Source: Tubulanus polymorphus (lineage: Eukaryota > Nemertea > Palaeonemertea > Tubulaniformes > Tubulanidae). Taken from it: 64,000 bases of DNA. Location of the stretch: NCBI RefSeq assembly GCF_964204645.1, contig NC_134036.1:1426001-1490000 (forward strand), given 5' to 3'. The position numbers and the translations under genes were made by a program. Under the pieces are notes generated by a model that made no database searches, was not told the origin of the DNA, and saw only the letters and a list, made by a program, of their open reading frames with translations. Positions within the stretch are counted from its first letter, which is position 1. Each line of letters opens with the position of its first letter. Positions 8,101-41,200 of the stretch are shown piece by piece.

Positions 8101-11100
8101 AAAAACAATCAACAAACCTAAAATCAAAGGCTCCATCACAACTTTAGACATAACGACGTCACTGATACCTTTTACTCAATACAACTGTTCAATGTTTGCC
8201 TCGAATAGTAAAGGGGAAGGGTCACCTGCCAGTGTTAGCTTTTGGTCAGGTGAGTAATTTGAACCCAATGACCTCAAGTATTCATTGATGTCACTTGTCA
8301 ACATTGTCACTTACTGATATTTCAGGTGAAATAACAATTCCCCTACTGGTTGTCAAGAAAGCAGCGATAACAAACACGACTGTTACACTTCAAATAACAC
8401 GTGTTAATACTGGAAACATTACGTAAGTGTCCTCTTATTTTCATCTATAAATAATGCATGATCTTATAAAACAATTTTTCTCTGATTTTCAGCGGTTACG
8501 AGGTGATCGTCAAGAAACATGATGGACCAATCAGCCGTCGCCGGAAGCGTGCAGTCAACCAATCACAGTACGTCTCGTACGGAGAAGCTAAACAGCGAGG
8601 ATTATCAGTTTATATTACTGCAGTTCTACCACCGAAAGTGCCCTCTGAGTTTATAGTTGGTGATACACGTGACTATTGTGGTTACTTTAATGCTCCTCTA
8701 GAAACTGGAAAATCTTACAGTTTTATTTTAGGAATCGTTGTCAATTATAACGGAGTGAGTTCATCTTGTCTTTGAATGTGAATTGTAGTTTCCAATTTGG
8801 AGGTGACTCTAGCCATTTTTTGGGGATTTTTCAGGAAACGTTTCGGCATTATCCACCAATAGAACAGCAAGAGAGAATCACTGTTCAAGCATCGTCTAGT
8901 AAGGCAGGGATAATAGGTGGCGTTGTGACAGTTGTTCTAATACTGTTATTGGTTGCTGTTGCTCTATATATTGTTTGGAGGTATGAGTAAATAGTGGCGA
9001 CCTCTATAGTCCAAGGCAAATCATTTGACAATCGCCCAATGCCCCTATTCTCACAAAAGTTCCCCCTCATTCAGTTACCCACTATATGGACGCTTTAACT
9101 TTTCAGACGCGGTGGATTCAAAATTAAACAAGCATCGAACAATGCAGAAATATCCATGGGGAATATTTCACCTTCTGATAAACCTATTGAAATACCTTTG
9201 GCGAGAGAAGAAGCAGAGGCTGTTTATGTGAATTGTCCTAAATCACCGAGACAAGAAAATACAGCTAGTGCAAATGCTGCATTTTCAAGAGGTTTGTCTC
9301 AAGACCGTGAGGTTTTGTAAAGTTGTAGCCTATTTTAACATTTAACACTATGATTCCTCTCCCTATAGTAAGCTCCGCGTATTTCAATATCTATGACGAT
9401 CCGAATGCTGTAGATGAAACGCAAGATGGCGAGGATCATCACTACGAAATCGCTTCTAAAGGCGCTACTATGATTTGTGACCTGTTGGGAGAGACCTTGA
9501 TGAAGACCTCTGATGAGTGGAAGAATATGAATGAAGAATTTCAGGTAAAATTGCTGGGAGGTTGCGACTGCTCGTGGGTAAGACATGTGATCATGTTCTG
9601 GATCTATTTTTTCTTTAGAGTGTTCTCAAATTCAGACGAGGATTGAGCGCCTGCGCTGAGACAGTGGAGAATCTTGAGAAAAACAGGTTTCCAAACATAT
9701 TGGCCTGTAAGTATTGCCTGGTCATTATATAGACATGAGTTCTGTCGTAAATACAAGAGTTGCCTTGTGAAACATCTCTATTGAGTTTCATTGACTTTGA
9801 GTGGTTTTTTCTAGATGATTCGACTAGAGTTGTTCTGGAACAAATCGGTGAAGATCCAACATCAGATTACATCAATGCCAATTATATTCGGGTGATAAAT
9901 CAATCCCTCTCTGCTCTTGAAAATGTTGCCACGTCCTCCTATTGTATATAAACGGAAATTCTGAATTTAATTTTCAGGGACTAACTGGTCATGTAATATG
10001 TATTGCTTGCCAGGGTAAGTCTCATGATTCAATTGTTGCGTGTTACTTGTGCGCTCACTCATCTAACTTGTTCTTTCAGCTCCATTGCTATCTACAATCA
10101 ATGACCATTGGCGGATGATCTGGCAAGAGAAATGTCCAGCTATCATTGTACTTACTGTTCTGACTGAAGGACAAGGCAAAGATAAGAAGGTTGCAAAAAT
10201 ACTCTAAGATGCTGAAGCGTAAACAGGCAAAATTTAGAAAAATAAGTACCGTTGATTTTTAACTTGCAGGTGAAGTATCATTTATATTGGCCAACAAAAC
10301 TGAACACGAAAGGTCGATATGGAGATATAACAGTAAAAGTTGCAAAGAAAATGGAAAAACACACTGAGCCTCCGGCTGCCGTACATTTCTTGTCCATTAC
10401 AAAGGTAATGATCATGTCATTGCTTTATCATGAGTGACCTAGTGTTGGTATTTCTGCTATCTATAAGCTTGGTTCAGATATCGATTTTAATAGACTCTCC
10501 CGATAAGTAACATTTCATTTATTTTATAGCGTGGCCACAAACAAGCACATAATCTATTAGTGTTTCACTATCGAGGATGGCCGGATCATGGTGTACCGTT
10601 CCCGGCTTTATCTGTTGTTCGTATGCAACAGTTCATCAAACAGCGTCTTACCGACCCGGATCAGGGACTTGTGCTGGTTCATGGCAGGTAAATTAATTTG
10701 AAATCGTCCAGTCCTTTACAGTTAAGGACACGTTTAGATATGTTATTGTTTGTGTTCTCAGTGCTGGTGCTGGAAGGACGGGTTGTTATATCGCAACGGA
10801 GCAGCTTCTTGAGAAAGCCAAGAAAGATGGACTTGTTAACGTATTCGACATGTTTAGGAAATTACGACAACAAAGACCAGAAATGATCCAAAATATGGTA
10901 AATCTTAATAAAGTTACTGCCTCTCATTTCACGTTTCCAAAATGGAAAACTTCAACGTGTTCCTTTATTACTATCTACTTCAGAAACAGTACATTCTCGT
11001 GCACCAGATTCTACTGGAGGAACTGATACTGGGACCAGTGGCATACACGACCACGAGTTTCAGAGAATCATACGAGGAAAGAAAGGCAACGCGACCAGTA

Positions 11101-12550
11101 TCTAAAAACGTGTCTGATAAAATAGAGGAACAATTTCTTGTACGTATTAAGATCAGCCAAAATGAGATGAAGGGTTTTGGATAACAAACAGATGGCAGCA
11201 ATGAATCCATTGACCCAGATAAACTAGATTTCAATTTTTTTCCTTGGTTTGGTTTTGAAGAAAATAATTACCCAATGCGTTGTTTTCTGATGCAGGTTTT
11301 GAAGGCATCGATTCCGATTCAGGACGAGGAATCACTAGCAGTGGCCAAACTACTCAACAATGTTAACAAGTCCCGATACAAAGACATCCTTCCCGAGGCA
11401 CAGTATCAACCGCAACTCTCACATAAAGGGTTCATCAATGCTTCATTTGTGCACGTGAGTTTGATTCTGAATTAATAGCTGTCCGTGGAATATCTGGTGG
11501 AGGGGGGCATTAATCCTCGATAATCTTCAGTTGAGATATCGATAAGTTATAAGAATCTGATTGAAATACTTTCCTTTTTACAGACGATCACAGATAAAAA
11601 CGTGTTTATAGCAACACAAAGTCCAATGGCAAATACTATTACTGACTTCTGGCAAATGATCTTTGACTATAACTGTGAAATTATTGTGATGATGCATCAA
11701 GAATATCCACAAGATCCGGTAAGGTGTATTCCTAGTCTAGCATCTAGTATACATAGGTCTGCTTTGTAGGTATCTTTTTCCAGAATACATCTTCTGATTT
11801 TAGACATATGCAAGTTACTGGCCTGCAGCTGGAAGCATCAAATGCAGTCCTTTTACAATCACTGTGGAGGAAGTTTCATTGCTCTGTAAGACCATCGTTC
11901 GCCGGGATTTGATCCTCAAAAAACAGAATGTATGTTGAGTTGTTTCGGTAGCTACTGTACAGAGAAATATGGCTGCATTTTTCGGAATTTCCTTCGACAT
12001 TGCTATTTACTATGACCTGATCAGATCAATTGTATTTCTTTGATTTCACAGGAATCGCATCAGATTCGTCAGATCCAGTTTTTAGGATGGCCTGAGGATG
12101 AGTCGGTTCCTAATTTACAACATCTATTCGAGTTTGTGAATCTAGTTACAAGAGAACACGTGACCAGTCCTATTGTTGTACATTGCATGTTCGTATCTTA
12201 GCAACATCAGTCAATTATTCAAAACAATATCACATATTCTATCGATTATGCAAATTTTACAGGGACAGCACAACGAGAGCAGGGTTATTTTGTGCGGCAT
12301 TTGAACTGATCACCAAGGCGCCATCTAGCGAACAAATCGATATTTATCACTGTATACAAAAACTACGAATGACTCGACCTCAATTCATTCCAAATTTGGT
12401 AAGAAATTAATCGATTTTCTTTGTATTTTCACGAGTTATTTTATTGATGTATTTTTCTTGTTTTCGTATTCATAGGAACAGTACAAGTTTCTACACGATC
12501 TGGTGATATTCTATTTACAAGGATTCGACACTTATGTGAACCTTAGTTAG
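1188..12550 (+). CDS. RPTP-A: receptor-type tyrosine (pseudo)phosphatase with duplicated Cys-rich/F-lectin/EGF/FN3 ectodomain
   Basis: 34 coding exons, 1836 aa, phases consistent throughout: 1188-1260, 1436-1630, 2168-2410, 3179-3418, 3718-3861, 4032-4346, 4426-4523, 4740-4968, 5177-5371, 5907-6137, 6639-6878, 7170-7313, 7419-7742, 7866-7975, 8051-8249, 8326-8422, 8493-8754, 8835-8980, 9107-9291, 9369-9544, 9619-9706, 9815-9891, 9978-10014, 10080-10189, 10270-10404, 10530-10687, 10762-10897, 10984-11139, 11296-11454, 11584-11718, 11804-11929, 12052-12188, 12263-12398, 12476-12550. Domains (aa): signal 1-24; Cys-rich Tie/EGF-like 25-89; F-lectin-like 90-250; EGF-like 251-298; FN3 299-403 and 404-512; second Cys-rich 513-577, F-lectin-like 578-734, EGF-like 735-782; FN3 783-890 and 891-993; FN3-like stalk 994-1113 with RRRKR at 1041-1045; TM about 1137-1160; Tyr-rich juxtamembrane to 1282; PTP D1 about 1283-1581; D2 about 1582-1836. 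D1 has KNRF, WPDHG and HGSAGAGRTG (Gly1483 where Cys is expected). D2 has WPED and HCMDSTTRAG (Cys1766). It should sit in the plasma membrane; catalysis by D1 is not expected. The start is the ATG opening a clean signal peptide. The ligand is unknown. Confidence 0.88.
1436..1630 (+). other. Cys-rich Tie/EGF-like module, first copy (RPTP-A)
   Basis: One phase 1-1 exon encodes about 65 residues with the pattern CFGKSCTGWLCHC ... CP ... ALTCPDPNTACES ... PGWTGPACQI. The tail PGWTGPAC is EGF/Tie-like and the paired CHC and CP positions suggest several disulphides. The same module opens each ectodomain block: 5177-5371 in A, 17512-17703 in B, 31887-32081 and 35342-35536 in C. Assignment is by pattern only; I do not recognise a named Pfam family with certainty. 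Confidence 0.5.
2168..3418 (+). other. F-lectin-like (F5/8C-type) domain, first copy (RPTP-A), two exons
   Basis: Exons 2168-2410 and 3179-3418 together give an eel-fucolectin-like fold signature: NVARGKT.. near the start, AWIRIDLG..YVVHKVTLWDR, then EIRVGN, paired Cys, VGRFVTVQH and LAEIEVIGF at the end. This is typical of fucolectin/pentraxin (FTP) domains of invertebrates. The RGDCC fucose/calcium motif of classical F-type lectins is not visible, so fucose binding should not be assumed. Equivalent exon pairs are 5907-6137 + 6639-6878 (A), 18171-18401 + 18988-19215 (B), 32548-32781 + 33279-33521 and 35990-36223 + 36721-36963 (C). Confidence 0.65.
5037..5116. repeat. (TA)n microsatellite at the junction of the two ectodomain blocks of RPTP-A
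   Basis: About 80 bp of pure TA in the intron between FN3-2 (ends 4968) and the second Cys-rich exon (starts 5177). The equivalent intron of RPTP-C carries the same tract at 35222-35281. Sequence left of it matches the post-FN3 intron and sequence right of it matches the intron preceding the first Cys-rich exon, so the tract marks the joint of the internal duplication. Confidence 0.95.
8493..8754 (+). other. Membrane-proximal stalk exon with furin-type RRRKR site (RPTP-A)
   Basis: The exon encodes a degenerate FN3-like segment containing SRRRKRAV at residues 1040-1047. Proprotein convertases cut after R-X-K/R-R, and LAR-type RPTPs are processed at a comparable membrane-proximal position into two non-covalently held chains. 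The site is also present in B (NRRRKRAV, exon 20912-21173) and C (SRRRKRAV, exon 38587-38848). Cleavage is inferred. Confidence 0.6.
10683..10685 (+). other. GGC (Gly) codon at the catalytic Cys position of PTP D1, RPTP-A
   Basis: The exon ending at 10687 reads ...LVLVHG and joins (phase 2) to SAGAGRTGCY in the exon starting at 10762. Active PTPs have HCSAGxGRTG here; the cysteine is the nucleophile. GGC replaces TGC by one transversion. The same codon is at 23104-23106 (B) and 40767-40769 (C). Confidence 0.93.
12184..12186 (+). other. TGC (Cys) codon of the D2 P-loop, RPTP-A, at an intron border
   Basis: The exon 12052-12188 ends VVHC + 'at' and the next exon (12263) completes Met and continues DSTTRAGLF. 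This gives H-C-x5-R with altered filler residues (MDSTT instead of SxGxG). The intron is phase 2, one codon after the Cys, exactly as in D1, which supports both the exon model and D1/D2 homology. Its donor reads GTTCGT, weak but conserved in all three genes. Confidence 0.8.
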
Positions 12551-15289: not shown

Positions 15290-15356
15290 AGGTTTATTTT
15301 CGCTCTGCTATTGTTTTTATTAGCGTTACGAAGGTCAAGTATCTCCATCGCTAAAG
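15290..15356 (+). other. Candidate 5' untranslated first exon of IgTM-2
   Basis: Sequence ending ctaaag|gtaaga at 15356 looks like a splice donor. The next plausible acceptor is ttcattacag at 16356-16365, just before the signal-peptide ATG. The matching donor in the third copy is at 27767. The 5' limit given here is approximate. Confidence 0.3.
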
Positions 15357-15489
15357 GTAAGAAAAACTAATTCTATTCTATCATCTTTTCGTTTTTTTAT
15401 TATGTTTATACAATTCACTATAGTTAGGCTGATATAGAATATTTATACTCTGTTTCTCCTAATCGGCTGAGCGTCACATTCGTAAAACA

Positions 15490-16897: not shown

Positions 16898-17263
16898 TGA
16901 TAGGATAAAATGATTCATGATTTTAATTGGTAATCAATTAGCTCTGTGGTATGTACTTATTCAGCTGATGCCTATTTTGTCTGATACGGGGAAAATCAAT
17001 GGTTTGTCTCATTTTACACGAAAGGGGTGTCATGTCTATCGTGCTAAGGATTTAAGTGGAGTTAATCCGTTAACACTATGAATTAAACTGTTTTTTTTTC
17101 ATGTTTTGATAATTTGTTCTTTTTACTTATCAAAGATTTTTTCTTTTATTTATTTTTTTCCTACTCAGGTAACGGTGACCCTTGATGTTCTGTTCTGGCC
17201 TCCTTCCTAACCTCCCCCTCAGATATGTGAGCGATATCATATTGCGTCATTCAGACAGACAAA

Positions 17264-20200
17264 ATGTACCGTGAAAGAAACATCGTTCGTTTTCTGCTGT
17301 TGTTGATTCTATGTTTATTCATCACAAACACATCAGGTGAGTTAATCAATAATCGTTGGTTCCAGAGCTGTAAAAAATGCGGAAATCGTAAATTGTACGA
17401 TTTCAATCCATAAGAGAGCACCGATGATAACCAGAGAAAGAAGAGAATTATTGTTGGAGAACAGCATTTGGAGAATATTTTTGTAAAATAATCTTCTTTT
17501 TGTCATTTCAGCGAAATGTTTTGGGAAGAGTTGTACTGGTTGGTTGTGTCATTGCAGTAATACAGCCGTGGACCAATGTCCAATCAACGGATATATAGAT
17601 GGCGCTTTAACGTGTCCAAATCCTAACACTGCATGTGAGTCTACAATAAGAACTCCGTATCCCTGGACACCACCAGGATGGGCCGGACCAGCTTGTCAAA
17701 TCGGTCAGTTTTCTGTTTTTGCTCCAGTAAACCGGGGTCAGGTCAAATATCACTGAACCTCGGATTTATATCAGATTTACGGATTAACTCCATGAAAGCC
17801 TTTACAAAAATAAATCTAAAAGAAATACGAATGAATGTTGTAAATTTCATTAGATTTATCTCAGATTAACGGAATAACACTAACACTAATCCGTATACGG
17901 ATTAACGTCACTAATCCATATACGGATTAACGTCACTAATCCATAAGCGGGAAAAAATCTATTAGTAAAAATATCATAGATTTATGAAACATCCGGGAAC
18001 TGTCGACGAACTGAGATCAACTCTAATTATTTCATCGCGTAAAGAAAAAAATGTTAGTTTTGTTAAATTCTAGTTGAAATTGTGAAATAACTTTGAATCA
18101 ATTTGTTTTTGTTCGTTTTGAAAATTCGTGAAATAATTCAAATCTTTTATTCACAAAATGTGTTTTGTAGGTAACGTGGCTCGTGGTAAAACAGTTAACA
18201 TGTCATCCACTTACTATGAGTTGTTACCCGGTAGTAAATGTACAGATGGTCAGACGGTCACTGGGATGGCTAGTGATCATGTATGTCACACTGAAGCGGA
18301 ACAAAATGCTTGGATTAGAATTGATCTCGGAACTCAATACGTGGTACATGAAGTTACACTTTGGGATAGAACAGACGGGATTGGTTGCACCGCTGAGTGG
18401 CGTGAGTACAAATTATCATTTTTGATTATTTCATTGATTATTTCGGTCAAATCTGAAAAAATAGAACTTTTAACTGGAAAAGTCTCGTTAGATATAAATT
18501 CGGTCTAGTAGATGAAATATCTTCAAAATCAACCAATTAATGATCGATTCTAGGAATCACAAATAAATATCCCGGACTCAGTTCCACACAGTTTTCAGTT
18601 ACCCTACGTTTAACCAAGATGAGTTGAAATATTGAACTCTACCGAAATATCGAACTCTGAGTCATCAATAATCAATAATATCAAACAGTACGACAACAAT
18701 GTGTCTGTGGTATCCATGGAAGACAACATCGTAAAAAATACGTTATTGGAAAATTTTGAATCAACTTTTTCAACGTGTCAACATTTTCAGTCGATAACAA
18801 TAAATTTGTGTTAGGGGCCGTGCGCCTGTCGAAAACAATTAATTTATTTTTATATTTCTTCTTCTAAAGAATTTGAATAGAATTGTCTTGCACCCAAAGC
18901 AATCTTCAGCTTCCCTGATTTCGTGCATTATTTTCTATTTTCATGGAGTAATCTGTCATATTTCAAAGCTCCTTAATCTTTTCTCAGAAAAACGCACGCG
19001 CAACCTGGAGATTCGAGTCGGAAATAGCCCGAGTATTTTTACATCTAACCAGAAATGTGCTTACCAGGGCCCCGCTCTCTGTGGAACACATAAAACATTA
19101 GCATGCAGCCCAGGTCCTATAGTTGGACAATACGTCACCGTTCAACACAAGAACATTGGTAAGGCAGAGTATCTCCACCTGGTAGAAATAGAAGTTATTG
19201 GGTTCAAATATATCGGTAAGTTTTACATGACTATATATATGTGTAAACTATAAAGAGTATGGAAATGGATTTTGCTTTTCTCGAAAATATTCAGTGACTT
19301 GTATATAGAATTTACCCCCGAACGAAAAATTTTGAAATGAAAAGAAGTCTCCCTTTATTACCAAAATTTTGTTTTAAGCACCCATGCATTTAAGGATTAT
19401 ATTATTGTTAAAATTAGATCGATTCATAAAAATATTCATTGACTTGTAATGAGAATATATTTCCGAAAGATCAAACGATTCATATTTTTCGTATCAATTT
19501 TGAATTTCTGTTTAGCACCCGGTGCTTGTAGTAAGGGATCGAACTCATTTGGATGTATGATTGAATGTTATCCGTGTTTCGACAACAGTGAAAGTTGTAA
19601 CTATTTGAGTGGTATCTGTGAATCTGGCTGTTCACAGAATTACATCGGAAAGTGGTGCGAGTCAGGTATATTACACTGAATCATAGATTCCTGGGAATCT
19701 CACGCCCTATTCCCTGAATATAGTAACCAATATGAATCGCAAAAGACCGAATATCCATGAACTTCAATACAGATCAATTTTCTTTTTCAGAATTTAAGTT
19801 ATTTTCTCAATTAAGAAAATCTACGCTGACAGATAACAGTGTAAGAGTCAGTTGGACAGCTTACTCGGGTTCTGTAGTAGATTCAGGACGTGGTACTGTC
19901 AGCGTTCAGTATCAAGTCGTTTATCGTAAGATATCAGAAAACACTTGGACTAATCAGGAAACTGCAGGAGTCCTTACACATCACACAGTTACTGGTTTAA
20001 CTCCTAATACCGAGTATAAGATAGCTGTTAGTCTACAGAAATTAGTGAACAGTAAACTTATATCAACTGCGAGTCAGACTAGTCCAATACTAACTATACA
20101 GACTTTGTGTGCAGGTAAAAACCCCTCATTCTTATAAACTCTAAATCATCAATTCAAACACAGAATTGTGTTGAACATGTTTGTTCTACTGTAGGTCCAT

Positions 20201-23200
20201 TTAAAATGCTATTAGTTGTCGTCATCAAGTAGATGTAAATTCGTATTTTATAAGTAATTTGTCTGTTGCATATATTTCAGTACCAGGACCTCCCGCTTCT
20301 CTCGACTTCTCATTCACAAAGGATACATTGAAAACTACATTGATATGGACAGCACCAAACAGTCCAAATTGTGATCTCATCAATTATCGGGTAGGAATTC
20401 TCTTGTCCTGACCAGTAGAGGGTACCACCCGCGCCATACTGTAACGTGTCTCCTATCTATTTTCAGCTCACGTGTGAACCCATTAGTACAACTTCCACAA
20501 CACCTTTATCAGAGATAAAAACATTCAACAAACCTAAAATCAAAGGCTCCGTCACAACTTTAGACATAACGACGTCACTGATACCTTTTACTCAATACAA
20601 ATGTTCAATTTATGCCTGGAATAGTAGAGGCGAAGGCTCGCCTGCCAGTGTTAGCTTTTGGACAGGTTTGTAATTTGACCACAACGACCTCAAATTTCCA
20701 CTGATGTCATCGATGTCAACATTGTCTGTATCGATATTTCAGGTAAAATAACCATTCCTCAACTGGTTGTCAAGAAGACAGCGGTAACAGACGCGACTGT
20801 TACACTTCAAATAACACGTGTTAACACTGGTAACATTACGTAAGTGTCCTCCATACATTTATCCATAAATAACGCATGATTTTTTTAAACTGGATATTCT
20901 CTGATTTTCAGCGATTACGAGGTCATCGTGAAGAAACATGATGGACCAATCAACCGTCGCCGGAAGCGTGCAGTCAGCCAATCACAGTACGTCTCGTACG
21001 AAGAAGCTAAACAGCGAGGATTATCAGTTTATATTACTGCAGTTCTACCACCGGAAGTGCCCTCTGAGTTTACAGTTGGTGATACGCGTAACTATAGTGG
21101 TTACTTTAATGCTCCTCTAGAAACTGGGAAATCATACAGTTTTATTTTAGGAATCGTTGTCAATTATAACGGAGTGAGTTCATCTAGTGTTTCAAAGCAA
21201 ATTGTAGTTTCCAATTTGGAGGTGATTCCAGCCATTTCTTTTTGATCTTTCAGGAAACGTTTCGGCATTATCCACCAATAGAACAACAGCAAGAGAGAAT
21301 CATTGTTAAAGCACCGTCTAGTAAGGCATGGATAATAGGTGGCGTTGTTGCAGCTGTTCTTATACTGTTATTGGTTGCTGTTGCTCTATATATTGTTTGG
21401 AGGTACGAGTAAATAGTGGCGACCTCTAAAGTCCAATGCAAATCATTTGACAATAGCCCAATGTCCCTACTCTCACAAAGGTTCCCCCTCATTCAGTTAC
21501 CCACTATATGGACGCTTTAACTTTTCAGACGCGGTGGATTCAAAACTAAACAAACATCGAACAATGCAGAAATATCCATGGGGAATATTTCACCTTCTGA
21601 TAAACGTATTGAAATACCTTTGGCGAGAGAAGAAGCAGAGGCTGTTTATGAGAATTGTCCTAAATCATCGAGACAAGAAAATACAGCTAGTGCAAATTCT
21701 GCATTTTCAAGAGGTTTGTCTCAAGACCGTGAGGTTTTGGAAAGTTGAAGCCTAATAATGTTTTAAAACTATGATTCCTGTCTATATAGAAAGCTCCGCG
21801 TATTTCAATATCTATGACGATCCGAATGCTGTATGCGAAACGCCAGATGGCGAGGATCGTCATAACGAAATCGCTTCTAAAGGCGCTACTATGATTTGTG
21901 ACCTGTTGGGAGATACTTTGATGAAAACCTCTGATGAGTGGAAGAATATGAATGAAGAATTTCAGGTAAAATTGCAGGGAGGTTGTGACTACGCGTCGGT
22001 AAGAGATGTGATTATTTTTTGGATCTATTTTATCTGTAGAGTGTTCTCAAGTTGAGACGTGGATTGAGCGCCTGCGCTGAGAAAGTGGAAAATCTTGAGA
22101 AAAACAGGTTTCCAAACATATTGGCCTGTAAGTATTGCCTGGTCATTATATAGACATGAGTTCTGTCGTAAATACAAGAGTTGCCTTGTGAAACATCTCT
22201 ATTGAGTTTCATTGACTTTGAGTGGTTTTTTCTAGATGATTCGACTAGAGTTGTTCTGGAACAAATCGGTGAAGATCCAACATCAGATTACATCAATGCC
22301 AATTATATTCGGGTGATAAATCAATCCCTCTCTGCTCTTGAAAATGTTGCCACGTCCTCCTATTGTATATAAACGGAAATTCTGAATTTAATTTTCAGGG
22401 ACTAACTGGTCATGTAATATGTATTGCTTGCCAGGGTAAGTCTCATGATTCAATTGTTTCGTGTTACTTGTGCGCTCACTCATCTAACTTGCTCTTTCAG
22501 CTCCATTGCTATCTACAATCAATGACCATTGGCGGATGATTTGGCAAGAGAAATGTCCGGCTATTATTGTACTCACTGCTCTGACTGAAGGACAAGGCAA
22601 AGATAAGAAGGTTGCAAAAATACTCTAAGATGCTGAAGCGTAAACAGGCAAAATGTAGAAAAATAAGTACCGTTGATTTTTAACTTGCAGGTGAAGTATC
22701 ATTTATATTGGCCAACAAAACTGAACACGAAAGGTCGATATGGAGATATAACAGTAAAAGTTGCAAAGAAAATGGAAAAACACACTGAGCCTCCGGCTGC
22801 CGTACATTTCTTGTCCATTACAAAGGTAATGATCATGTCATTGCTTTATCATGAGTGACCTAGTGTTGGTATTTCTGCTAACTATAAGCTTGGTTCAGAT
22901 ATCGATTTTAATAGACTCTCCCGATAAGTAACATTTCATTTATTTTATAGCGTGGCCACAAACAAGCACATAATCTATTAGTGTTTCACTATCGAGGATG
23001 GCCGGATCATGGTGTACCGTTCCCGGCTTTATCTGTTGTTCGTATGCAACAGTTCATCAAACAGCGTCTTACCGACCCGGATCAGGGACTTGTGCTGGTT
23101 CATGGCAGGTAAATTAATTCGAAAATCTTCCAGTCCTTTACCGTTAAGGACACGTTTAGATATGTTATTGTTTGTGTTCTCAGTGCTGGTGCTGGAAGGA

Positions 23201-24971
23201 CGGGTTGTTATATCGCAACGGAGCAGCTTCTTGAGAAAGCCAAGAAAGATGGACTCGTTAACGTATTCGACATGTTTAGGAAATTACGACAACAAAGACC
23301 AGAAATGATCCAAAATATGGTAAATCTTAATAAAGTTACTGCCTCTCATTTCACGTTTCCAAAATGGAAAACTTCAACGTGTTCCTTTATTACTATCTAC
23401 TGCAGAAACAGTACATTCTCGTGCACCAGATTCTACTGGAGGAACTGGTACTGGGACCGGTGGCATACACGACCACGAGTTTCAGAGAATTATACGAGGA
23501 AAGAAAGGCAACGCGTCCCGTATCTAGAAACGTGTCTGATAAAATAGAGGAACAATTTCTTGTACGTATTAAGATCAGCCAAAATGAGATGAAGGGTTTT
23601 GGATAACAAACAGATGGCAGCAATGAATCCATTGACCCAGATAAACTAGATTTCAATTTTTTTCCTTGGTTTGGTTTTGAAGAAAATAATTACCCAATGC
23701 GTTGTTTTCTGATGCAGGTTTTGAAGGCATCGACTCCGATTCAGGACGAGGAATCACTAGCAGTGGCCAAACTACTCAACAATGTTAACAAGTCCCGATA
23801 CAAAGACATCCTTCCCGAGGCACAGTATCAACCGCAACTCTCACATAAAGGGTTCATCAATGCTTCATTTGTGCACGTGAGTTTGATTCTGAATTAATAG
23901 CTGTCCGTGGAATATCTGGTGGAGGGGGGCATTAAGCCTCGATAATCTTCAGTTGAGATATCGATAAGTTATAAGAATCTGATTGAAATACTTTCCTTTT
24001 TACAGACGATCACAGATAAAAACGTGTTTATAGCAACACAAAGTCCAATGGCAAATACTATTACTGACTTCTGGCAAATGATCTTTGACTATAACTGTGA
24101 AATTATTGTGATGATGCATCAAGAATATCCACAAGATCCGGTAAGGTGTATTCCTAGTCTAGCATCTAGTATACATAGGTCTGCTTTGTAGGTATCTTTT
24201 CCAGAATACATCTTCTGATTTTGGACATATGCAAGTTACTGGCCTGCAGCTGGAAGCATCAAATGCAGTCCTTTTACAATCACTGTGGAGGAAGTTTCAT
24301 TGCTCTGTAAGACCATCGTTCGCCGGGATTTGATCCTCAAAAAACAGAATGTATGTTGAGTTGTTTCGGTAGCTACTGTACAGAGAAATATGGCTGCATT
24401 TTTCGGAATTTCCTTCGACATTGCTATTTACTATGACCTGATCAGATCAATTGTATTTCTTTGATTTCACAGGAATCGCATCAGATTCGTCAGATCCAGT
24501 TTTTAGGATGGCCTGAGGATGAGTCGGTTCCTAATTTACAACATCTATTCGAGTTTGTGAATCTAGTTACAAGAGAACACGTGACCAGTCCTATTGTTGT
24601 ACATTGCATGTTCGTATCTTAGCAACATCAGTCAATTATTCAAAACAATATCACATATTCTATCGATTATGCAAATTTTACAGGGACAGCACAACGAGAG
24701 CAGGGTTATTTTGTGCGGCATTTGAACTGATCACCAAGGCGCCATCTAGCGAACAAATCGATATTTATCACTGTATACAAAAACTACGAATGACTCGACC
24801 TCAATTCATTCCAAATTTGGTAAGAAATTAATCGATTTTCTTTGTATTTTCACGATTTATTTTATTGATGTATTTTTCTTGTTTTCGTATTCATAGGAAC
24901 AGTACAAGTTTCTACACGATCTGGTGATATTCTATTTACAAGGATTCGACACTTATGTGAACCTTAGTTAG
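17264..24971 (+). CDS. RPTP-B: receptor-type tyrosine (pseudo)phosphatase, single ectodomain block
   Basis: 27 coding exons, 1346 aa: 17264-17336, 17512-17703, 18171-18401, 18988-19215, 19516-19665, 19791-20114, 20281-20390, 20467-20665, 20743-20839, 20912-21173, 21254-21402, 21529-21713, 21790-21965, 22040-22127, 22236-22312, 22399-22435, 22501-22610, 22691-22825, 22951-23108, 23184-23319, 23406-23561, 23718-23876, 24006-24140, 24225-24350, 24473-24609, 24684-24819, 24897-24971. Order: signal, Cys-rich, F-lectin-like, EGF-like, three FN3-type segments, furin-type site, TM, PTP D1 and D2. It has one ectodomain block where A and C have two. Gly993 (23104-23106) replaces the D1 catalytic Cys; D2 Cys is residue 1276. 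From about 22120 it is almost identical to RPTP-A (offset 12421). The acceptor before exon 24225 reads GG instead of AG, which should disturb D2 splicing. All exons otherwise keep frame. Confidence 0.82.
23104..23106 (+). other. GGC (Gly) codon at the catalytic Cys position of PTP D1, RPTP-B
   Basis: Same exon border as in A: VHG + phase-2 intron + SAGAGRTG. Corresponds to residue 993 of the 1346-aa model. Confidence 0.93.
24223..24224 (+). other. Mutated splice acceptor (GG for AG) before a D2 exon of RPTP-B
   Basis: RPTP-A has gattttag|acatatgc (exon at 11804) and RPTP-C the same (41904). B has gattttgg|acatatgc. An upstream AG (ctttgtag ending 24191) would add 33 nt in frame but includes a TGA, and ccag ending near 24204 is out of frame. 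No good in-frame replacement is visible, so correct D2 is unlikely from this allele unless GT-GG splicing is tolerated. Confidence 0.85.
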
Positions 24972-28457: not shown

Positions 28458-28488
<31 letters not shown>

Positions 28489-28497: not shown

Positions 28498-29616
28498 TAA
28501 TAGTTTTGGAAACACTGGTACGTGCGTTTAGTTAATATAATCCTGAAGCCGGGTCGTGCTACAGTGCTACTTTAATTCTACATGCTCATAATCTCGATCG
28601 CGGTTTAACTGTTTACAAAACGGACTAGAATATCAAACGTCTTGTCCACACACAGCGGTACCTGCGATATATTCTAAATCAGTGTTCATCTTCATTACAG
28701 AAGTGTTTGCCAATGATGTCGGTGTTGTTGCTAATGACGCAGTGCACATGAATATATGGTAAATAAAATCTACTAGGTTTTCGCAATGTCGCTTGGGAAA
28801 TGGCAAACGGTTATCTTAGAATTTCCACTTGTAAATTGGTAATTTTGTGAATTGTTTGTTAATTATTTATAGGACAGCAGCAGAACTGTATAGTTGTGCT
28901 GTGTGCGTTGGGCTTTACAAAGCAAATCCATGTCAGTAGCGATATCTATTTTCAGTTCCACCCGAATTCATTGTGCTGACTGAATTTCCAAACGGTCCAG
29001 TTGTCCAAGGCACATCGAAAACTCTGACTCCAGTAACCCAGAGTTTTCAATTGTCTGGGCGTACAGATATGGGGTATCAACATGGACAAATGTTTCACCC
29101 AACCCAGCAATCAATCATAAACCTGGTCCTCACAGTGGTCGGGTATCTACTAGTAGTTTGGTAGTTACAACCGATAAGGATAAAATGGAAGGCAATACAG
29201 ATGTACTGCTTATCAGAACGGTGTGTCTTTTCATGTGGTCACCAACTCCACGACACTGTCAGTATTGTGTAAGTGACGTTTATAACACCTTAAACAACAT
29301 CATTTTTCTTTTCTATTTTATCAAACTTTTTTTTTCTATATATAGGTTATATTATATTTCTAAAATATTCTTCTTTCCTGTAAAATGAAAAGTAGATGTT
29401 TCATATTCTATAGATTCGGCAGATTCTGTTTCGCTGACTCCAGTAAACTCTGTCGTAAGGGAAGGCGGCTCGATTCGGTTTAACTGTGCAGCAACTGGTG
29501 GAAATCCTGATAGTTTCACTTTCGTATGGCAATTCTCAACTGTTTCGGGTTTCTGGAAATCAATCGGATCCACGAATGATTATTTAGCCCTAGATAATGT
29601 ATCAAGAACTGATTCT

Positions 29617-29756
29617 GGGGCTGGTTGCATAGTCATGGCTTAGACTTAAGACTAGTCTAAGACCAACTTAGTTCTATAGCCAATCTAACAATTTAAGACC
29701 GGTCTTATGATTTAAGACCATTTTTGGACTTAAGTCATGACTGTGCAACTGGCCCC
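29617..29756. mobile_element. Short inverted-repeat element (MITE-like) inserted in an Ig exon
   Basis: About 140 bp. The left end GGGGCTGGTTGCATAGTCAT and the right end (reverse complement GGGGCCAGTTGCACAGTCAT) match at 17 of 20 positions. The inside is also palindromic (gacttaag ... cttaagtc, agaccggtct). It splits the Ig motif D-S-G | Q-Y-R-C of IgTM-3. A target-site duplication is not clear. Confidence 0.75.
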
Positions 29757-30431
29757 AGGACAATATAGATGTAATGCGACCAATACAGGAGGTTCTACTT
29801 TCAGTAATATCGCTTCTGTCGATGTTCAATGTAAGTAACCAGCCAATAAAGAGTTTTCCAGTTTCTAGGCACCATTATCCTGTACCCATTTATAAGGACT
29901 CTCAGATTATGGATGAATACAGTATTTAGAATGATTCTGATAATGTGACCAAAAACTTTTTCATTTTTCACAGATGCACCAACGCTCTCAGAGAAACTGA
30001 AACCTGTAGCCGCAAAAATAGGGGAAAGCGTTAGATTTATGATAGGCTACTATGCAAATCCGCAAGCGACGAGTTTAAACTGCATCCACGAGTTCATATA
30101 CAGAACTAATTGGTTCAGATCAGATATAATGTGCTGGGAAGTTACGATCGAATCAGTCCAGGCGTCTGATTATGGATCTCATTCGTGTCAACTGAAGAAT
30201 TCGATCGGTAGCCTGGATATTATTACATTGGATATCCTTAAAACTGGTAATTACTGTTCCGAATATTCTCATCGCTAATATTCCCCATTAATATCCACTT
30301 GCGGCTAACTAACGGCTGTGCAATACAAAAACAAAAAATGGCGAAAGTTTGTGTTTTGTAAGATGCTCAGCTAAATGAAGAAATCCCACACTTCGAATTT
30401 AAAATTATACGATCAAATTTATATTATGAAA

Positions 30432-31634: not shown

Positions 31635-34600
31635 ATGTATCGTGAAAGAAACATCTTTCGTTTTTTGCTGTTGTTTATTCTATGTCTATTCATCACAAAC
31701 ACATCAGGTGAGTTAATCAATACTCATTGGTTCCAGAGCTGTAAAAAATGCGGAAATCGTAAATATTGTATTGTATTTCAATCCATAAGAGAGCACCGGT
31801 GATAACCAGAGAAAGAAGAGAATTATTGTTGGAGAACAGCATTTGGAGAATATTTTTGTAAAATAATCTTCTTTTTGTCATTTCAGCGAAATGTTTTGGG
31901 AAGAGTTGTACTGGTTGGGAGTGTCATTGCAGTAATACAGCTGTGGACCAATGTCCAATAAGAAGTCGGAATACAGATGGCGCTTTAACGTGTCCAAATC
32001 CCAATTCTGCATGTGAGTCTACAATAAAAACTCCGTATCCCTGGACACCACCAGGATGGACCGGACCAGCTTGTCAAATCGGTAAGTTTTCTGTATCAAC
32101 TGTTTCTGCTCCAGTAAACCGGGATCAGGTCAAATATCACTGAACCTCGGATTTATATCAAATTAACGGATTAACTCCATGAAAGCCTTTACAAAAATAA
32201 ATCTTAAAGAATTAGGAATGAATGATGTAAATTTCATTAGATTTATCTCAGATTAACCGAATAACACTAAAACTAATCCGTATACGGATTAACGTCACTA
32301 ATCCATAAGCGGGAAAAAAATTTATTGGTAAAAATATCATAGATTTATGAAACTTCCGGGAACTGTCAACGAACTGAGATCAACTCGCGATGAAATAATC
32401 AAATTATTTCATCGCGTAAAGAAAAAAATGTTAGTTTTGTTTAATTCTAGTTGAAATTGTGAAATAACTTTGAATCAATTTGTTTTTGTTCGTTTTGAAA
32501 ATTCGTGAAATAATTCAAATCTCTTATTCACAAAATGTGTTTTGTAGGAAACGTGGCTCGTGGTAAAACAGTTGCAATGTCATCCATTCTCAGGATTGAA
32601 AGTGACTATCGCGGTAGTAAATGTACAGATGGTCAGATGGTAAGTGGAATGTGTCACACTAAAGATAATCAAGACGCCTGGATTAGAATTGATCTCGGTG
32701 CTCAATACGTCGTACATGAAGTTACACCTTGGGATAGAAGAGACGTGACTGGTTGCACCGATAACCCGTGGAATTCGTGGAGTGAGTACAAATTATTAAT
32801 GTTGATTGATCATCTAGGCCAAATCTGATAGAAAAAATATATAACTTCAGCTCGAAAAGCCTGGTTGAATATAAACCAAGTTTAGATGAGTGATTTTTTC
32901 AGAAAAGTTTGACCCGAGATAAGTTGAAACTTTGAACTCTACCGAAATATCGAACTCAGAGTCAACAATAATCAATAATCTGTAAATAAAGTCAGTTCGA
33001 CAACAATGTGTCTGTGGTATCCATGGATGACAACTTCGTAAAAAATACGTCATTGGAATTTTGAATCAACTTTTTCGACGTGTCAACATTTTCAGTCGAT
33101 AACTATAAATTTGTGTTAGGGGCCGTGCGCCTGTCGAAAACAATTAATTTATTTTTATATTTCTTTTTCAAAGAGTTTGAACAGAATTGTTTTGCACCCA
33201 AAGCAATCTTCAGCTTCCCGGATGTCGTGCATTATCATTTGTTTTCATCTTTCAAAGCTTCTTAATTCTTTTTCTCAGAAAAACGTTCGCGCAACCTGGA
33301 GATTCGAGTTGGAGATGAATATGGCAATGATACAAGTATTTCTACATCTAACCAGAAATGTGCTTACCATGGCTTACCCCCTCTCTGTGGTACACATAAA
33401 ACATTAGCATGCAGCCCAGGTCCTATAGTTGGACGATACGTCACCGTTCAACACAAGAACATTGGCTACGCAGAGTCTCTCGCACTGGCAGAAATAGAAG
33501 TTATCGGGTTCAAATATATCGGTAAGTTTTACATGACTATATATATGTGTAAACTATAAAGAGTATATGGAAATGGATTTTGCTTTTCTCGAAAATATTC
33601 AGTGACTTGTATATAGAATTTACCCCCGAACGAAAAATTTTGAAATGAAAAGAAGTCTCCCTTTATTACCAAAGTTTGGTTTTTAAGCACCCATTCATTT
33701 ATGGATTTATTATTGTTAAAATTAGATCGATTTTCATAAAAATATTCAGTGACTTGTAATGGGAATATATTTCCGAAAGATCGAACGATTCATATTTTTC
33801 GTATCAAATTTGAATTTCTGTTTAGCACCCGGTGATTGTAGTAAGGGATCGAACTCATTTGGATGTATGATTGAATGTAGATGTTACAACAGTGAAAGTT
33901 GTAACTATTTGAGTGGTATCTGTCAATCTGGCTGTTCACAGAATTACATCGGAAAGTGGTGCGAGTCAGGTATATTACACTGAATCATAGATTCCTGGGA
34001 ATCTCACTTCCTATTCCCGAAATATAGTAACCAATATGAATCGAAAATGATACCAAGTAAAAAAAAACCGAAAGTAAAAGATCCTTACCCTTTATTTTAT
34101 TCGATTCACCTGAAATTAACATCTCAGATTTCTTTTTCAGAATTGAAATCGTTTTCTCAATTAACAAAATCTGCGCTGACAGATAACAGTGTAAAAGTCA
34201 GATGGAGAGCTTACTCGGGTTCTGTAGTAGATTCAGGACGTGGTACTGTCAGCGTTCAGTATCTAGTCGTTTATCGTAAAATATCAGAAAAGACTTGGAC
34301 TAATCAGGAAACTGCAGGAGTCCTTACACATCGCACAATTACTGGTTTAACTCCTAATACCGGGTATAAGATAGCTGTTAGACTACAGAAAATAGTGAAC
34401 AATCAACTTATATCAACTGCGAGTCTGACTAGTACAGTATTAACTTTGTGTGCAGGTAAAACCCCTCATTCTAATAAACTCTTAATCATCATTTCAAACA
34501 CAGAATTGTGTTGAACATGTTTGTTTTACTGTAGATCCATTAAACGGTCCTAAAGGTGTTCGTGTGGTGTCCACAGCGGTTGAGAATAGTAACACGTGGC

Positions 34601-35217
34601 CCCAGACAACCAATCTGATACTTACATGGACCGTAAGTTTGCCTCAACCAGAATCACATAAATTCACCTGGGCCCGGTTTTATAGACTAGTGTTACCTTC
34701 AACCCGGGGCTAACTTAATTTAATTTCTTACTTTATCAACTAATTCACCTGATGTTCATTTATATCGATATGACAAGGGAAGAAAATGTGACCTTCCCTT
34801 TCAGTGACACATGATAAAAACATGTAGTGAATTATAATTATGTTGCAGGCTTTAACTGCTGCAGAGTTACAGTGTGACGTCACTAAAGCTGTTTATCAAG
34901 TCGAGTATAAACAACTGAACCGACAAACATGGACCACAAAAGTGGCGCAACCTACCGGCCTCACACTAACAGGACTAGAACCATATACTGATTATGAAGT
35001 TAGAGTTGGTGTAAAGAATGACGTCACTCAGAAATTCATTTACACCAAACCTAAAAGTTACAAAACGTCGACTGCGGGTAACTTAAAAATGAATGACGAG
35101 ACCAGTTTAAACGCAAGAAATCCCACATTAGATATAGCCAAAACGAGAAACTTGAATAAGAGTAAATGTAGTTGGCTCATAGGCATTAGCCGAAACATTG
35201 CACAAATACATTTGCTC

Positions 35218-35283
<66 letters not shown>

Positions 35284-38200
35284 TTGGAGAACAGCATTTA
35301 GAGAATGTTTTTTGTAAAACAATCTTCTTTTGTCATTTCAGTAATATGTTTTGGGAAGAGTTGTACTGGTTGGGAGTGTCATTGCAGTAATACAGCAGTG
35401 GACATATGTCCAATAAAGGGTCAGAATATAGATGGCGCTTTAACGTGTCCAAATCATAATACTGCATGTGAGTCTACAATAAAAACTCCGTATCCCTGGA
35501 CACCACCAGGATGGACCGGACCAGCTTGTCAAATCGGTAAGTTTTCTGTATCAACTGTTTCTGCTGCAGTAAACCGGGGTCAGGTCAAATATCACTGAAC
35601 CTCGGATTTATATCAAATTAACGGATTAACTCCATGAAAGCCTTTACAAAAATAAATCTTAAAGAATTAGGAATGAATGATGTAAATTTCATTAGATTTA
35701 TCTCAGATTAACCGAATAACACTAAAACTAATCCGTATACGGATTAACGTCACTAATCCATAAGCGGGAAAAAAATTTATTGGTAAAAATATCATAAATT
35801 TATGAAACTTCCGGGAACTGTCGACGAACTGAGATCAACTCTTAATTATTTCATCGCGTAAAGAAAAAAATGTTAGTTTTGTTTAATTCTAGTTGAAATT
35901 GTGAAATAACTTTGAATCAATTTGTTTTTGTTCGTTTTGAAAATTCGTGAAATAATTCAAATCTCTTATTCACAAAATGTGTTTTGTAGGAAACGTGGCT
36001 CGTGGTAAAACAGTTGCAATGTCATCCATTCTCAGGATTGAAAGTGACTATCGCGGTAGTAAATGTACAGATGGTCAGATGGTAAGTGGAATGTGTCACA
36101 CTAAAGATAATCAAGACGCCTGGATTAGAATTGATCTCGGTGCTCAATACGTCGTACATGAAGTTACACCTTGGGATAGAAGAGACGTGACTGGTTGCAC
36201 CGATAACCCGTGGAATTCGTGGAGTGAGTACAAATTATTAATGTTGATTGATCATCTAGGCCAAATCTGATAGAAAAAATATATAACTTCAGCTCGAAAA
36301 GCCTGGTTGAATATAAACCAAGTTTAGATGAGTGATTTTTTCAGAAAAGTTTGACCCGAGATAAGTTGAAACTTTGAACTCTACCGAAATATCGAACTCA
36401 GAGTCAACAATAATCAATAATCTGTAAATAAAGTCAGTTCGACAACAATGTGTCTGTGGTATCCATGGATGACAACTTCGTAAAAAATACGTCATTGGAA
36501 TTTTGAATCAACTTTTTCGACGTGTCAACATTTTCAGTCGATAACTATAAATTTGTGTTAGGGGCCGTGCGCCTGTCGAAAACAATTAATTTATTTTTAT
36601 ATTTCTTTTTCAAAGAGTTTGAACAGAATTGTTTTGCACCCAAAGCAATCTTCAGCTTCCCGGATGTCGTGCATTATTATTTGTTTTCATCTTTCAAAGC
36701 TTCTTAATTCTTTTTCTCAGAAAAACGTTCGCGCAACCTGGAGATTCGAGTTGGAGATGAATATGGCAATGATACAAGTATTTCTACATCTAACCAGAAA
36801 TGTGCTTACCATGGCTTACCCCCTCTCTGTGGTACACATAAAACATTAGCATGCAGCCCAGGTCCTATAGTTGGACGATACGTCACCGTTCAACACAAGA
36901 ACATTGGCTACGCAGAGTCTCTCGCACTGGCAGAAATAGAAGTTATCGGGTTCAAATATATCGGTAAGTTTTACATGACTATATATATGTGTAAACTATA
37001 AAGAGTATGGAAATGGATTTTGCTTTTCTCGAAAATATTCAGTGACTTGTATATAGAATTTACCCCCGAACGAAAAATTTTGAAATGAAAAGAAGTCTCC
37101 CTTTATTACCAAAATTTTGTTTTAAGCACCCATTCATTTAAGGATTATATTATTGTTAAAATTAGATCGATTTTCATAAAAATATTCAGTGACTTGTAAT
37201 GGGAATATATTTCCGAATGTTCAAACAGTTCATATTTTCGTATCAAATTTGAATTTCTGTTTAGCACCCGGTGGTTGCAGTAAGGGATCGAACTCATTTG
37301 GATGTATGATTGAATGTAGATGTTACAACAGTGAAAGTTGTAACTATTTGAGTGGTATCTGTGAATCTGGTTGTTCACAGAATTACATCGGAAAGTGGTG
37401 CGAGTCAGGTATATTACACTGAATCAGAGATTCCTTAGAATCTCGGTCCCAACTGTAAACGACTGAAAGTAAAGATCCTTGTTCATCTAAAACTAACATC
37501 AATCTATTTTCAGAATTTAAGTTGTTTTCGCTATTAACAGAATCTGCGCTGACAGATAACAGTGTAAGAGTCGGTTGGACAGCTTACTCGGGTTCTGTAG
37601 TAGATTCAGGACGTGGTACTGTCAGCGTTCTGTATCAAGTCGTTTATCGTAAGATATCAGAAAAGACTTGGACTAATCAGGAAACTGCAGGGGTCCTTAC
37701 ACATCACACAATTACTGGTTTAACTCCTTATACCAGGTATAAGATAGCTGTTAGACTACAGAAATTAGTGAACGGTCAACTTATATCAACTGCGAGTCTG
37801 ACTAGTATGACTAGTACAGTATTAACTTTGTGTGCAGGTAAAACCCCTCATTCTAATAAACTCTTAAACTGTAAATGAGTTAAACATGTTGCTGTCGTCA
37901 TCAAGTAGATGTCAATTCACAGAATCGCATTACTTAATTTGTCTGTGGTGTTTATTTCAGTACCAGGACCTCCCGCTTCTCTCGACTTCTCATTCACAAG
38001 GGATACATTGAAAACTACATTGACATGGACTTTACCAAACAGTCCAAATTGTGATGTCATCAATTATTGGGTAGGAATTAACTTGTCCTGACCATTAGAG
38101 GGCACCACCTGCGCTATACTGTAACGTGTCCCTATCTGTTTTCAGCTCACGTGTGAACCCATCAGTACAACTTCCACAACACCTTTAACAGACATAAAAA

Positions 38201-41200
38201 CAATCAACAAACCTAAAATCAAAGGCTCCATCACAACTTTAGACATAACGACGTCACTGATACCTTTTACTCAATACAACTGTTCAATGTTTGCCTCGAA
38301 TAGTAAAGGGGAAGGGTCACCTGCCAGTGTTAGCTTTTGGACAGGTGAGTAATTTGACCCAATGACCTCAAGTATTCATTGATGTCACTTGTCAACATTG
38401 TCACTTACTGATATTTCAGGTGAAATAACAATTCCCCTACTGGTTGTCAAGAAAGCAGCGGTAACAAACACGACTGTTACACTTCAAATAACACGTGTTA
38501 ATACTGGAAACATTACGTAAGTGTCCTCTTATTTTCATCTATAAATAATGCATGATCTTATAAAACAATTTTTCTCTGATTTTCAGCGGTTACGAGGTGA
38601 TCGTCAAGAAACACGATGGACCAATCAGCCGTCGCCGGAAGCGTGCAGTCAACCAATCACAATACGTCTCGTACGGAGAAGCTAAACAGCGAGGATTATC
38701 AGTTTATATTACTGCAGTTCTACCACCGGAAGTGCCCTCTGAGTTTATAGTTGGTGATACACGTGACTATAGTGGTTACTTTAATGCTCCTCTAGAAACT
38801 GGGAAATCTTACAGTTTTATTTTAGGAATCGTTGTCAATTATAACGGAGTGAGTTTATCTTGTCTTTGAATGTGAATTGTAGTTTCCAATTTGGAGGTGA
38901 CTCTAGCCATTTTTTGGGGATTTTTCAGGAAACGTTTCGGCATTATCCACCAATAGAACAGCAAGAGAGAATCACTGTTCAAGCATCGTCTAGTAAGGCA
39001 GGGATAATAGGTGGCGTTGTGACAGTTGTTCTAATACTGTTATTGGTTGCTGTTGCTCTATATATTGTTTGGAGGTGCGAGTAAATAGTGGCGACCTCTA
39101 TAGTCCAATGCAAATCATTTGACAATCGCCCAATGCCCCTAAAGTTCCCCCTCATTCAGTTACCCACTGTATGGACGCCTTAACTTTTCAGACGCGGTGG
39201 ATTCAAAACTAAACAAACATCGAACAATGCAGATGTATCCATGGGGAATATTTCACCTGCTGATGAAGGTATTGAAATACCTTTGGCGAGAGAAGAAGCA
39301 GAGGCTGTTTATGTGAATTGTCCTAAATCATCGAGACAAGAAAATACAGCTAGTGCAAATGCTGCATTTTCAAGAGGTTTGTCTCAAGACCGTGAGGTTT
39401 TGGAAAGTTGAAGCCTAATAATGTTTTAACACTATGATTCCTGTCTATATAGAAAGCTCCGCGTATTTCAATATCTATGACGATCCGAATGCTGTATGCG
39501 AAACGCAAGATGGCGAGGATCATCATAACAAAATCGCTTCTAAAGGCGCTACTATGATTTGTGACCTGTTGAGAGAGACCTTGATGAAAACCTCTGATGA
39601 ATGGAAGAATATGAATGAAGAATTTCAGGTAGAATCGCCGTGAGGTTGGGACTGCGCGTTGGTAAGACATTTGATTATGTTCTGGATCTATTTTGTCTTT
39701 AGAGTGTTCTCAAGTTGAGACGAGGATTGAGCGCCTGCGCTGAGAAAGGGGAAAATGCTGAGAAAAACAGGTTTCCAAACATTTTGGCCTGTAAGTATTG
39801 CCTGGTCATTATATAGACATGGGTTCTGTCGTAAATACAAGAGTTGGCTTGTGAAACATCTCTATTGACTTTCATTGACTTTGAGTGGTTTTTTCTAGAT
39901 GATTCGACTAGAGTTGTTCTGGAACAAACCGGTAAAGATCCAACATCAGATTACATCAATGCCAATTATATTCGGGTAAGGAATCAATCCTTCTATGCTC
40001 TTCCAAAGGTTTTCCTGTCCTCCTATAGTATATAAACCGAAATTCTGAATTTAATTTTCAGGGACTAACTGGTCATGTGATATGTATTGCTTGCCAGGGT
40101 AAGTCTCATGATTCAATTGATTCGTGTTACTTGTGCGCTCACTCATCTAACTTGCTCTTTCAGCTCCATTGCTATCTACAATCAATGACCATTGGCGGAT
40201 GATTTGGCAAGAGAAATGTCCAGCTATTATTGTACTCACCGACCTGACTGAAGGACATGACAAAGATAAGAAGGTGGCAAAAATACTCTAAGATGCTGAA
40301 GCGTAAACAGGCAAAATGTAGAAAAATAAGTACTTTTGATTTTTAACTTGCAGGTGAAGTGTCATTTATATTGGCCAACAAAACTGAACACGAAAGGTCG
40401 ATATGGAGATATAACAGTGACAGTTGCAGAGAAAATGGAAACACACACTGAGCCTCCGGCTGCTGTACATTTCTTGTCCATTACAAAGGTAATGATCATG
40501 TCATTGCTTTATCATGAGTGACCTAGTGTTGGTATTTCTGCTATCTATAAGCTTGGTTCAGATATCGATTTTAATAGACTCTCCCGATGAGTAACTTTTC
40601 ATTTATTTCATAGCGTGGCCACAAAGAAGCACATAATCTGTTAGTTTGTCACTATCGAGGATGGCCGGATCATGGTGTACCGTTCCCGGCTTCATCTGTT
40701 GTTCGTATGCAACAGTTCATCAAACAGCGTCTTACCGACCCGGATCAGGGACTTGTGCTGATTCATGGCAGGTAAATTAATTCGAAAATCTCCCAGTCCT
40801 TTACTGTTAAGGACAAGTTTAGAAATGTTATTGTTTGTGTTGTGTTCTCAGTGCTGGTGCTGGAAGGACAGGTTGTTATATCGCAACGGAGCAGCTTCTT
40901 GAAAAAGCTAAGAAAGATGGACTCGTTAACGTATTCGACATGACTAGGAAATTACGACAACAAAGACCAGAAATGATCCAGAATATGGTAAAATCTTAAT
41001 AAATTTACTGCCTCTCATTTCACGTTTCCAAAATGGATAACTACAACGTGTTCCTTATTACTATCTACTTCAGAAACAGTACATTCTCGTGCACCAGATT
41101 CTACTGGAGGAACTGGTACTGGGACCGGTGGCGTACCCGACCACGAGTTTCAGAGAATTATACGAGGAAAGAAAGGCAACGCGTCCCGTATCTAGAAACG

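Follow-up and report, generated by a model that had tools for sequence, protein, structure and literature searches.

What becomes of a receptor protein tyrosine phosphatase (RPTP) when the nucleophile of its first catalytic domain has been lost in gene after gene? The question is raised by three neighboring genes, here called A, B, and C, within the 64,000-nucleotide stretch C12:1426001-1490000 of a 268-Mb animal genome assembly in 77 contigs; this whole stretch is referred to below as the window. Each gene encodes an ectodomain, one transmembrane (TM) segment, and two protein tyrosine phosphatase (PTP) domains, D1 and D2, both matching PF00102, which is the layout of a classical tandem RPTP, and in each the catalytic Cys of D1 is Gly. 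We favor, with moderate confidence, the reading that A, B, and C are lineage-specific receptor pseudophosphatases in which both domains are predicted to be inactive and which may serve as phosphotyrosine- or substrate-binding decoys or scaffolds.

Glycine at the D1 nucleophile position

Read directly from the DNA, the D1 P-loop of all three genes is HGSAGAGRTG and spans a phase-2 GT-AG intron. The upstream exon ends in CTG, GTT or ATT, CAT, GGC, and AG, followed by gtaaat, and the downstream exon begins after cag with T, GCT, GGT, GCT, GGA, AGG, ACG or ACA, and GGT, giving V/I-H-G-S-A-G-A-G-R-T-G. In gene A, where exon 9 reads GGA CTT GTG before the final CTG and the variable codons are GTT and ACG, the junction of exons 9 and 10 translates as LVLVHGSAGAGRTG. 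The GGC codons lie exactly at the bases to which the initial annotation had assigned them (Table 1), and alignment to the solved receptor phosphatase structures of PTPRE and PTPRA places this Gly at the catalytic Cys position. The best family match is Y_phosphatase (PF00102, 400.9 bits), against only 44.5 bits for DSPc, so that the PTP domains are classical and not of the dual-specificity phosphatase (DUSP) type, and the Cys of the HCX5R signature is replaced by Gly at 17 loci. In PTP chemistry, the Cys nucleophile forms a cysteinyl-phosphate intermediate. Because no phosphoenzyme can form without it, the loss of D1 activity that the sequence predicts is close to certain.

That splicing or RNA editing brings Cys back in the transcript is scarcely conceivable. 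The Gly codon does abut a splice junction, but each gene has a single match to exon 9 and no second P-loop exon, and the flanking introns 8 and 9 of gene A are short (125 and 74 bp), which leaves no space for another exon that could supply HC; editing of GGC to TGC would need a G-to-T (G-to-U) change, which is outside the common types, A-to-I and C-to-U. A substitute nucleophile was also considered in Cys210, just past the P-loop; this is unlikely, since a receptor of the same genome with a normal HCSAG loop (L005) shares that Cys.

Distribution of glycine- and cysteine-bearing copies

Across the whole assembly, 17 loci and no others carry the exon end CTGNTTCATGGCAGGTA, with 0 matches for a reversed control pattern; a search with the exon-9 peptide returned 26 matches. 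Eleven Gly loci, A, B, and C included, follow one another at C12:1.325-1.467 Mb, three lie at C12:1.078-1.111 Mb, and single ones are found at C12:2.513, C9:4.322, and C7:6.505 Mb. Recurrence of an identical exon end at 17 separate loci on the chromosome-scale contigs C7, C9, and C12 excludes a sequence error at one site. By exon mapping, almost all Gly copies have a common exon plan with canonical splice sites, and by translation 16 have open frames in all the D1 and D2 exons that were located, all 16 with GGC as the Gly codon; the C7 copy is cut short in exon 10, within D1. Among the open copies, no match to exons 4-6 was located at C12:1.110 Mb, exon 4 went undetected or was incompletely fetched in two others, and the copy at C12:1.348 Mb has a slightly longer tail and an exon 6 that was not found.

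Three Cys-bearing neighbors at C12:278, 290, and 307 kb share the exon plan of A, B, and C and differ in a D1 P-loop of HCSAGAGRTG, so that they are predicted to be active. The 307-kb gene, the only one of the three with a fully read ectodomain, has the same ectodomain architecture too. In the fetched loci, Cys is present in every other receptor P-loop. The claim of the initial annotation that Gly is present in every copy stands for the window and for every open copy genome-wide; it fails for an 18th subfamily member at C10:9.378 Mb (C10:9376000-9380200, L050), the only one with TGC (Cys) in D1. This member is a pseudogene: a stop interrupts the DYINANYI motif of exon 5, and D2 contains frameshifts.

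A separate receptor phosphatase at C7:6352250-6353824 (L001, L002) has both PTP domains in one 837-codon open frame, unlike the intron-rich genes of the cluster, and is possibly a retrocopy.

The D1 pocket and the state of D2

Around the missing nucleophile, the D1 pocket is otherwise intact in residue counts over the open copies, in agreement with the earlier observation that WPD, KNR(F), and the P-loop Arg remain. The WPD Asp, the P-loop Arg, and the Q-loop Gln are each present in 16/16 copies and the P-loop glycines are invariant, while KN is found in 13/13 and the following Arg in 12/13 copies in which the motif could be located. HGSAGAGRTG is exact in 15 of the 16, the exception being S202R at C12:1.078 Mb; the pattern is that of STYX, with Cys exchanged for Gly and the rest of the P-loop intact. 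The F of KNRF was considered as a further disabling change and ruled out, because two of the three Cys-bearing neighbors also have KNRF. At the position that aligns with the "backdoor" Cys of other PTPs (KxxCHxYWP, D1 exon 7), a residue whose role is taken from work on PTPRU (PMC7320164), Tyr is found only in the A/B clade (A, B, L035, L039, and L041). This fits expectation, since its redox partner, the catalytic Cys, is gone.

D2 is, to judge from its residues, of the inactive type as well, because it has WPE for WPD, a P-loop (HCMDSTTRAG) without the usual glycines, and Pro for the Q-loop Gln. The P-loop does retain H, C, and R in 16/16 open copies, and it could be argued from this C-X5-R that D2 is a working phosphatase and the receptor still an enzyme. 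The three substitutions make this highly unlikely, as does the P-loop of the same kind in the Cys-bearing sisters (HCMDSTTRTG), from which it follows that D2 did not gain activity at the time D1 lost its own.

Selection on D1 and D2

A one-ratio M0 codon model was applied to the 16 open Gly copies only and thus describes evolution after the loss of Cys. The ratio of nonsynonymous (dN) to synonymous (dS) substitution, omega, was 0.38 for D1, with twice the log-likelihood difference (2dlnL) from omega 1 at 54.7; the P-loop exons 9-10 gave 0.34 (2dlnL 15.5) and D2 gave 0.36 (2dlnL 91.8), values that are rough because the branch lengths of the tree were scaled rather than refitted and because the cluster is a likely site of gene conversion. 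Mean pairwise counts were dN 0.040 and dS 0.144 for D1 and dN 0.046 and dS 0.184 for D2. D1 is under purifying selection, and the rejection of neutrality is not marginal; invariance of the Gly codon, taken alone, is not significant, because the tree is short. Open frames, pocket residues, and omega together support maintenance of the domain rather than decay.

It is on these grounds quite unlikely that the D1 change is a loss of recent date with no new function in its place, the copies drifting and persisting through tandem duplication and gene conversion. Such a history could accommodate the damaged copies (the C7 truncation, the C12:1.110-Mb copy, the C10 pseudogene, and a defective splice acceptor in gene B described below), and an alternating exon similarity to the Cys-bearing sisters does suggest conversion. 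It is harder to reconcile with 16 copies open at the D1 dS given above, with omega values of 0.28-0.38, and with a neutral omega for D1 rejected by 27 log-likelihood units. The decayed C10 relative is a picture of what real functional loss looks like, unlike the open Gly copies.

Origin of the glycine copies

In a D1 tree from which the catalytic codon was excluded, the Gly copies group together with the C10 pseudogene, with good support, to the exclusion of the Cys-bearing neighbors, and the pseudogene nests among the Gly copies with support of 97/96. The Gly copies as one clade are not firmly rejected (approximately unbiased test, p = 0.08). The codon context in C10 is CATTGC, as opposed to CACTGC in the Cys-bearing sisters, and its TGC does not look copied from them. 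The pseudogene may possibly be an early branch misplaced by a mosaic history, or its Cys a back-mutation in a dead gene. Similarity between the Gly copies and the Cys-bearing neighbors alternates between high and low when exons 4, 6, 10, 12, and 14 are set against the rest, a pattern that suggests exon-wise gene conversion between clusters.

One change followed by duplication is the simplest account, although the origin of Gly may have been less clean than that. Before the change, the ancestral gene would have encoded a typical tandem RPTP, its ectodomain of the F5/8C-EGF-FN3 type and its D1, unlike its D2, active; the mutation of one base, from TGC to GGC, would then have deleted the D1 nucleophile in one lineage, and the Gly version would then have spread to its present loci, mostly in tandem.

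Gene structures and ectodomains

The cytoplasmic model of gene A (8835-12550) begins with the TM exon, ends at the stop, and comprises 17 exons in an open frame, and all its introns are GT-AG (Table 1). In gene B, D2 exon 14 has GG at its acceptor (24223-24224) in place of the AG of A and C. Use of the closest AG upstream would put translation out of frame, and skipping of this 126-bp exon would preserve the frame.

Table 1. Positions of the receptor genes and their features in the window
Feature	Position	Strand	Description
Gene A ectodomain	1435..8766	+	Two [Cys-rich / F5/8C / EGF-like / FN3] modules, FN3b in first only, then FN3c and PTPRU-type FN3
Gene A TM and juxtamembrane exons	8835..9544	+	
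Gene A D1 PTP domain	9619..11019	+	Exons 4 to early 11; nucleophile absent, other pocket residues kept; Pfam PF00102, best stretch residues 187-428
Gene A exon 9	10530..10687	+	WPDHGVPFPA ... LVLVHGS (WPD loop and first half of P-loop)
Gene A D1 nucleophile codon	10683..10685	+	GGC = Gly, not Cys
Gene A exon 10	10762..10897	+	Remaining P-loop SAGAGRTG and start of Q-loop
Gene A D2 PTP domain	11020..12550	+	To stop TAG; WPE, HCMDSTTRAG, Q-loop Gln to Pro; inactive-type
Gene B ectodomain through TM exon end	17511..21402	+	Single module, without FN3b
Gene B D1 and D2	22040..24971	+	D1 at 22040-23441
Gene B D1 nucleophile codon	23104..23106	+	GGC = Gly
Gene C ectodomain through TM exon end	31886..39074	+	Two modules
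Gene C D1 and D2	39703..42650	+	D1 at 39703-41109
Gene C D1 nucleophile codon	40767..40769	+	GGC = Gly

The ectodomain of gene A is built of Cys-rich, F5/8C, EGF-like, and FN3 modules, and its membrane-proximal FN3 matches Pfam Fn3_PTPRU (PF23144). Two such module sets are present in A, C, the copy at C12:1.37-1.38 Mb, and the Cys-bearing 307-kb gene, and one in B. In the first part of F5/8C, loops variable in length and sequence lie between fixed blocks (window 2161-2424, 5900-6151, 18164-18415, 32541-32795, and 35983-36237). Among nine copies, whose pairs are not independent, dN/dS is near 0.95 for F5/8C, with dN exceeding dS in 11 of 30 pairs, and 0.33 for D1 exon 9 in the same comparison. 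This suggests that varied ligand recognition may stand ahead of a conserved inner part.

Elsewhere in the window, two immunoglobulin-domain exons lie at 29425-30242 between genes B and C, and an isolated stretch downstream of C (45001-45144) with 44% identity to the receptor TM exon is possibly a remnant or part of another receptor. A carboxylesterase open frame of 458 amino acids occupies 50078-51451 on the minus strand (PF00135, 443 bits), and an 81-bp unit is repeated 9.9 times in an open frame at 60231-61029, where the Pfam matches look like low-complexity chance ones.

A probable continued role for D1

The retained pocket residues and purifying selection favor, at the level of sequence, a continued role for D1. 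By analogy, its most likely role would be noncatalytic: D1 may still bind phosphotyrosine or substrates in competition with the Cys-bearing sisters, and the receptor could serve as a decoy or scaffold and so protect phosphosites, in the way proposed for PTPRU. The initial annotation likewise proposed that D1 may bind phosphotyrosine or that the receptors may act as scaffolds or traps. Substrates common to both sets are plausible because the exon plan is shared and the 307-kb gene has the full ectodomain architecture.

Several points weigh against this. The pocket is imperfectly guarded, with S202R in the otherwise intact copy at C12:1.078 Mb and KNS for KNR in another copy, and gene conversion among the clustered copies can bias omega and could carry one allele through them even if it brought no advantage. 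PTPRU, moreover, binds substrates with an occluded D1 pocket and largely via D2 (PMC7320164), so that even a D1 pocket that looks intact may not be the part that does the work. It is possible, though less likely, that the ectodomain and D2 do the work and D1 is a folded spacer or a protein-binding surface whose pocket binds no phosphotyrosine. Such a division would suit the finding that the D2 of PTPRK alone suffices for Afadin recruitment, independent of phosphorylation (PMC9640194), the constraint on D2, which equals that on D1, and the diversity of the F5/8C loops, which lies outside while D1 is conserved. A spacer would not, however, need invariant ligand-contact residues (the WPD Asp, the P-loop Arg and Gly residues, and the Q-loop Gln), although fold constraints could explain part of this invariance.

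It may tentatively be speculated that A, B, and C belong to a paired-receptor system in which variable F5/8C recognition is common to a few active, Cys-bearing RPTPs and a larger inactive, Gly-bearing set. The same kind of ligand would then lead either to removal or to protection of phosphotyrosine, an arrangement that can be likened to activating and inhibitory immune receptors, which act by other means.

Comparison with known pseudophosphatases

The R2B receptors have a MAM-Ig-FN3 ectodomain, in place of which A, B, and C have F5/8C, EGF-like, and FN3 domains. PTPRN and PTPRN2 (IA-2) are neuroendocrine vesicle proteins with one PTP domain that keeps its Cys and is inactivated by other changes, and EGG-4 and EGG-5 of Caenorhabditis elegans are a protein pair and not tandem-domain F5/8C-FN3 receptors.

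PTPRU, an R2B member, resembles the family described here as a single-pass receptor whose tandem PTP domains are both predicted or shown to be inactive and which is proposed to be a decoy for the substrates of active paralogues, shielding p120-catenin sites without activity of its own (PMC7320164). The membrane-proximal FN3 domain of gene A adds to the likeness, and here too both D1 and D2 lack catalytic determinants. The means of inactivation differ: PTPRU keeps its catalytic Cys, and a WPD-to-WPE change, a P-loop Thr, and a divergent phosphotyrosine loop collapse its pocket (PMC7320164), whereas the D1 of A, B, and C has WPD and KNR(F) and no Cys. The family here also has 17 Gly loci. The comparison with STYX made in the initial annotation is right at the residue, since STYX also has Gly for the nucleophile in an otherwise intact P-loop (PMC8269279, PMC3507883), with MK-STYX as a further precedent; it does not extend to the protein, since STYX is a single-domain DUSP relative and A, B, and C are classical tandem receptors. 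PTPRN and PTPRN2 are likewise receptor-type PTPs reported to be inactive (PMC7320164), and EGG-4 and EGG-5 are PTP-like proteins that lack a signature residue, bind phosphotyrosine-bearing MBK-2, and act noncatalytically (PMC3507883).

It had been suggested that no receptor family of this kind is described. For the Cys-to-Gly change this agrees with our search, which turned up no paper describing Gly in the D1 of a tandem-domain receptor, weak evidence given partial literature coverage; receptors with inactive D1 and D2 domains are already known from PTPRU, as are inactive PTPRN and PTPRN2. What is new, as far as the papers searched show, is a Cys-to-Gly D1 in a tandem-domain receptor that has been amplified to 17 loci, and not receptor pseudophosphatases as such. 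Beyond the initial annotation, the analysis adds the inactive-type D2, the number of Gly loci, the Cys-bearing sisters with shared gene architecture, and a pseudogene as the sole Cys-bearing member of the subfamily. Known receptor pseudophosphatases such as PTPRU and PTPRN are mostly single genes inactivated by several simultaneous changes; here, one clean nucleophile change has been fixed and amplified, with the pocket still under selection and predicted active sisters alongside. The family, whose closest precedent is PTPRU by function and STYX by residue, thereby offers a natural experiment: it can show whether evolution is able to turn a receptor PTP domain into a module for phosphotyrosine binding, and what a receptor gains from a catalytically dead D1.

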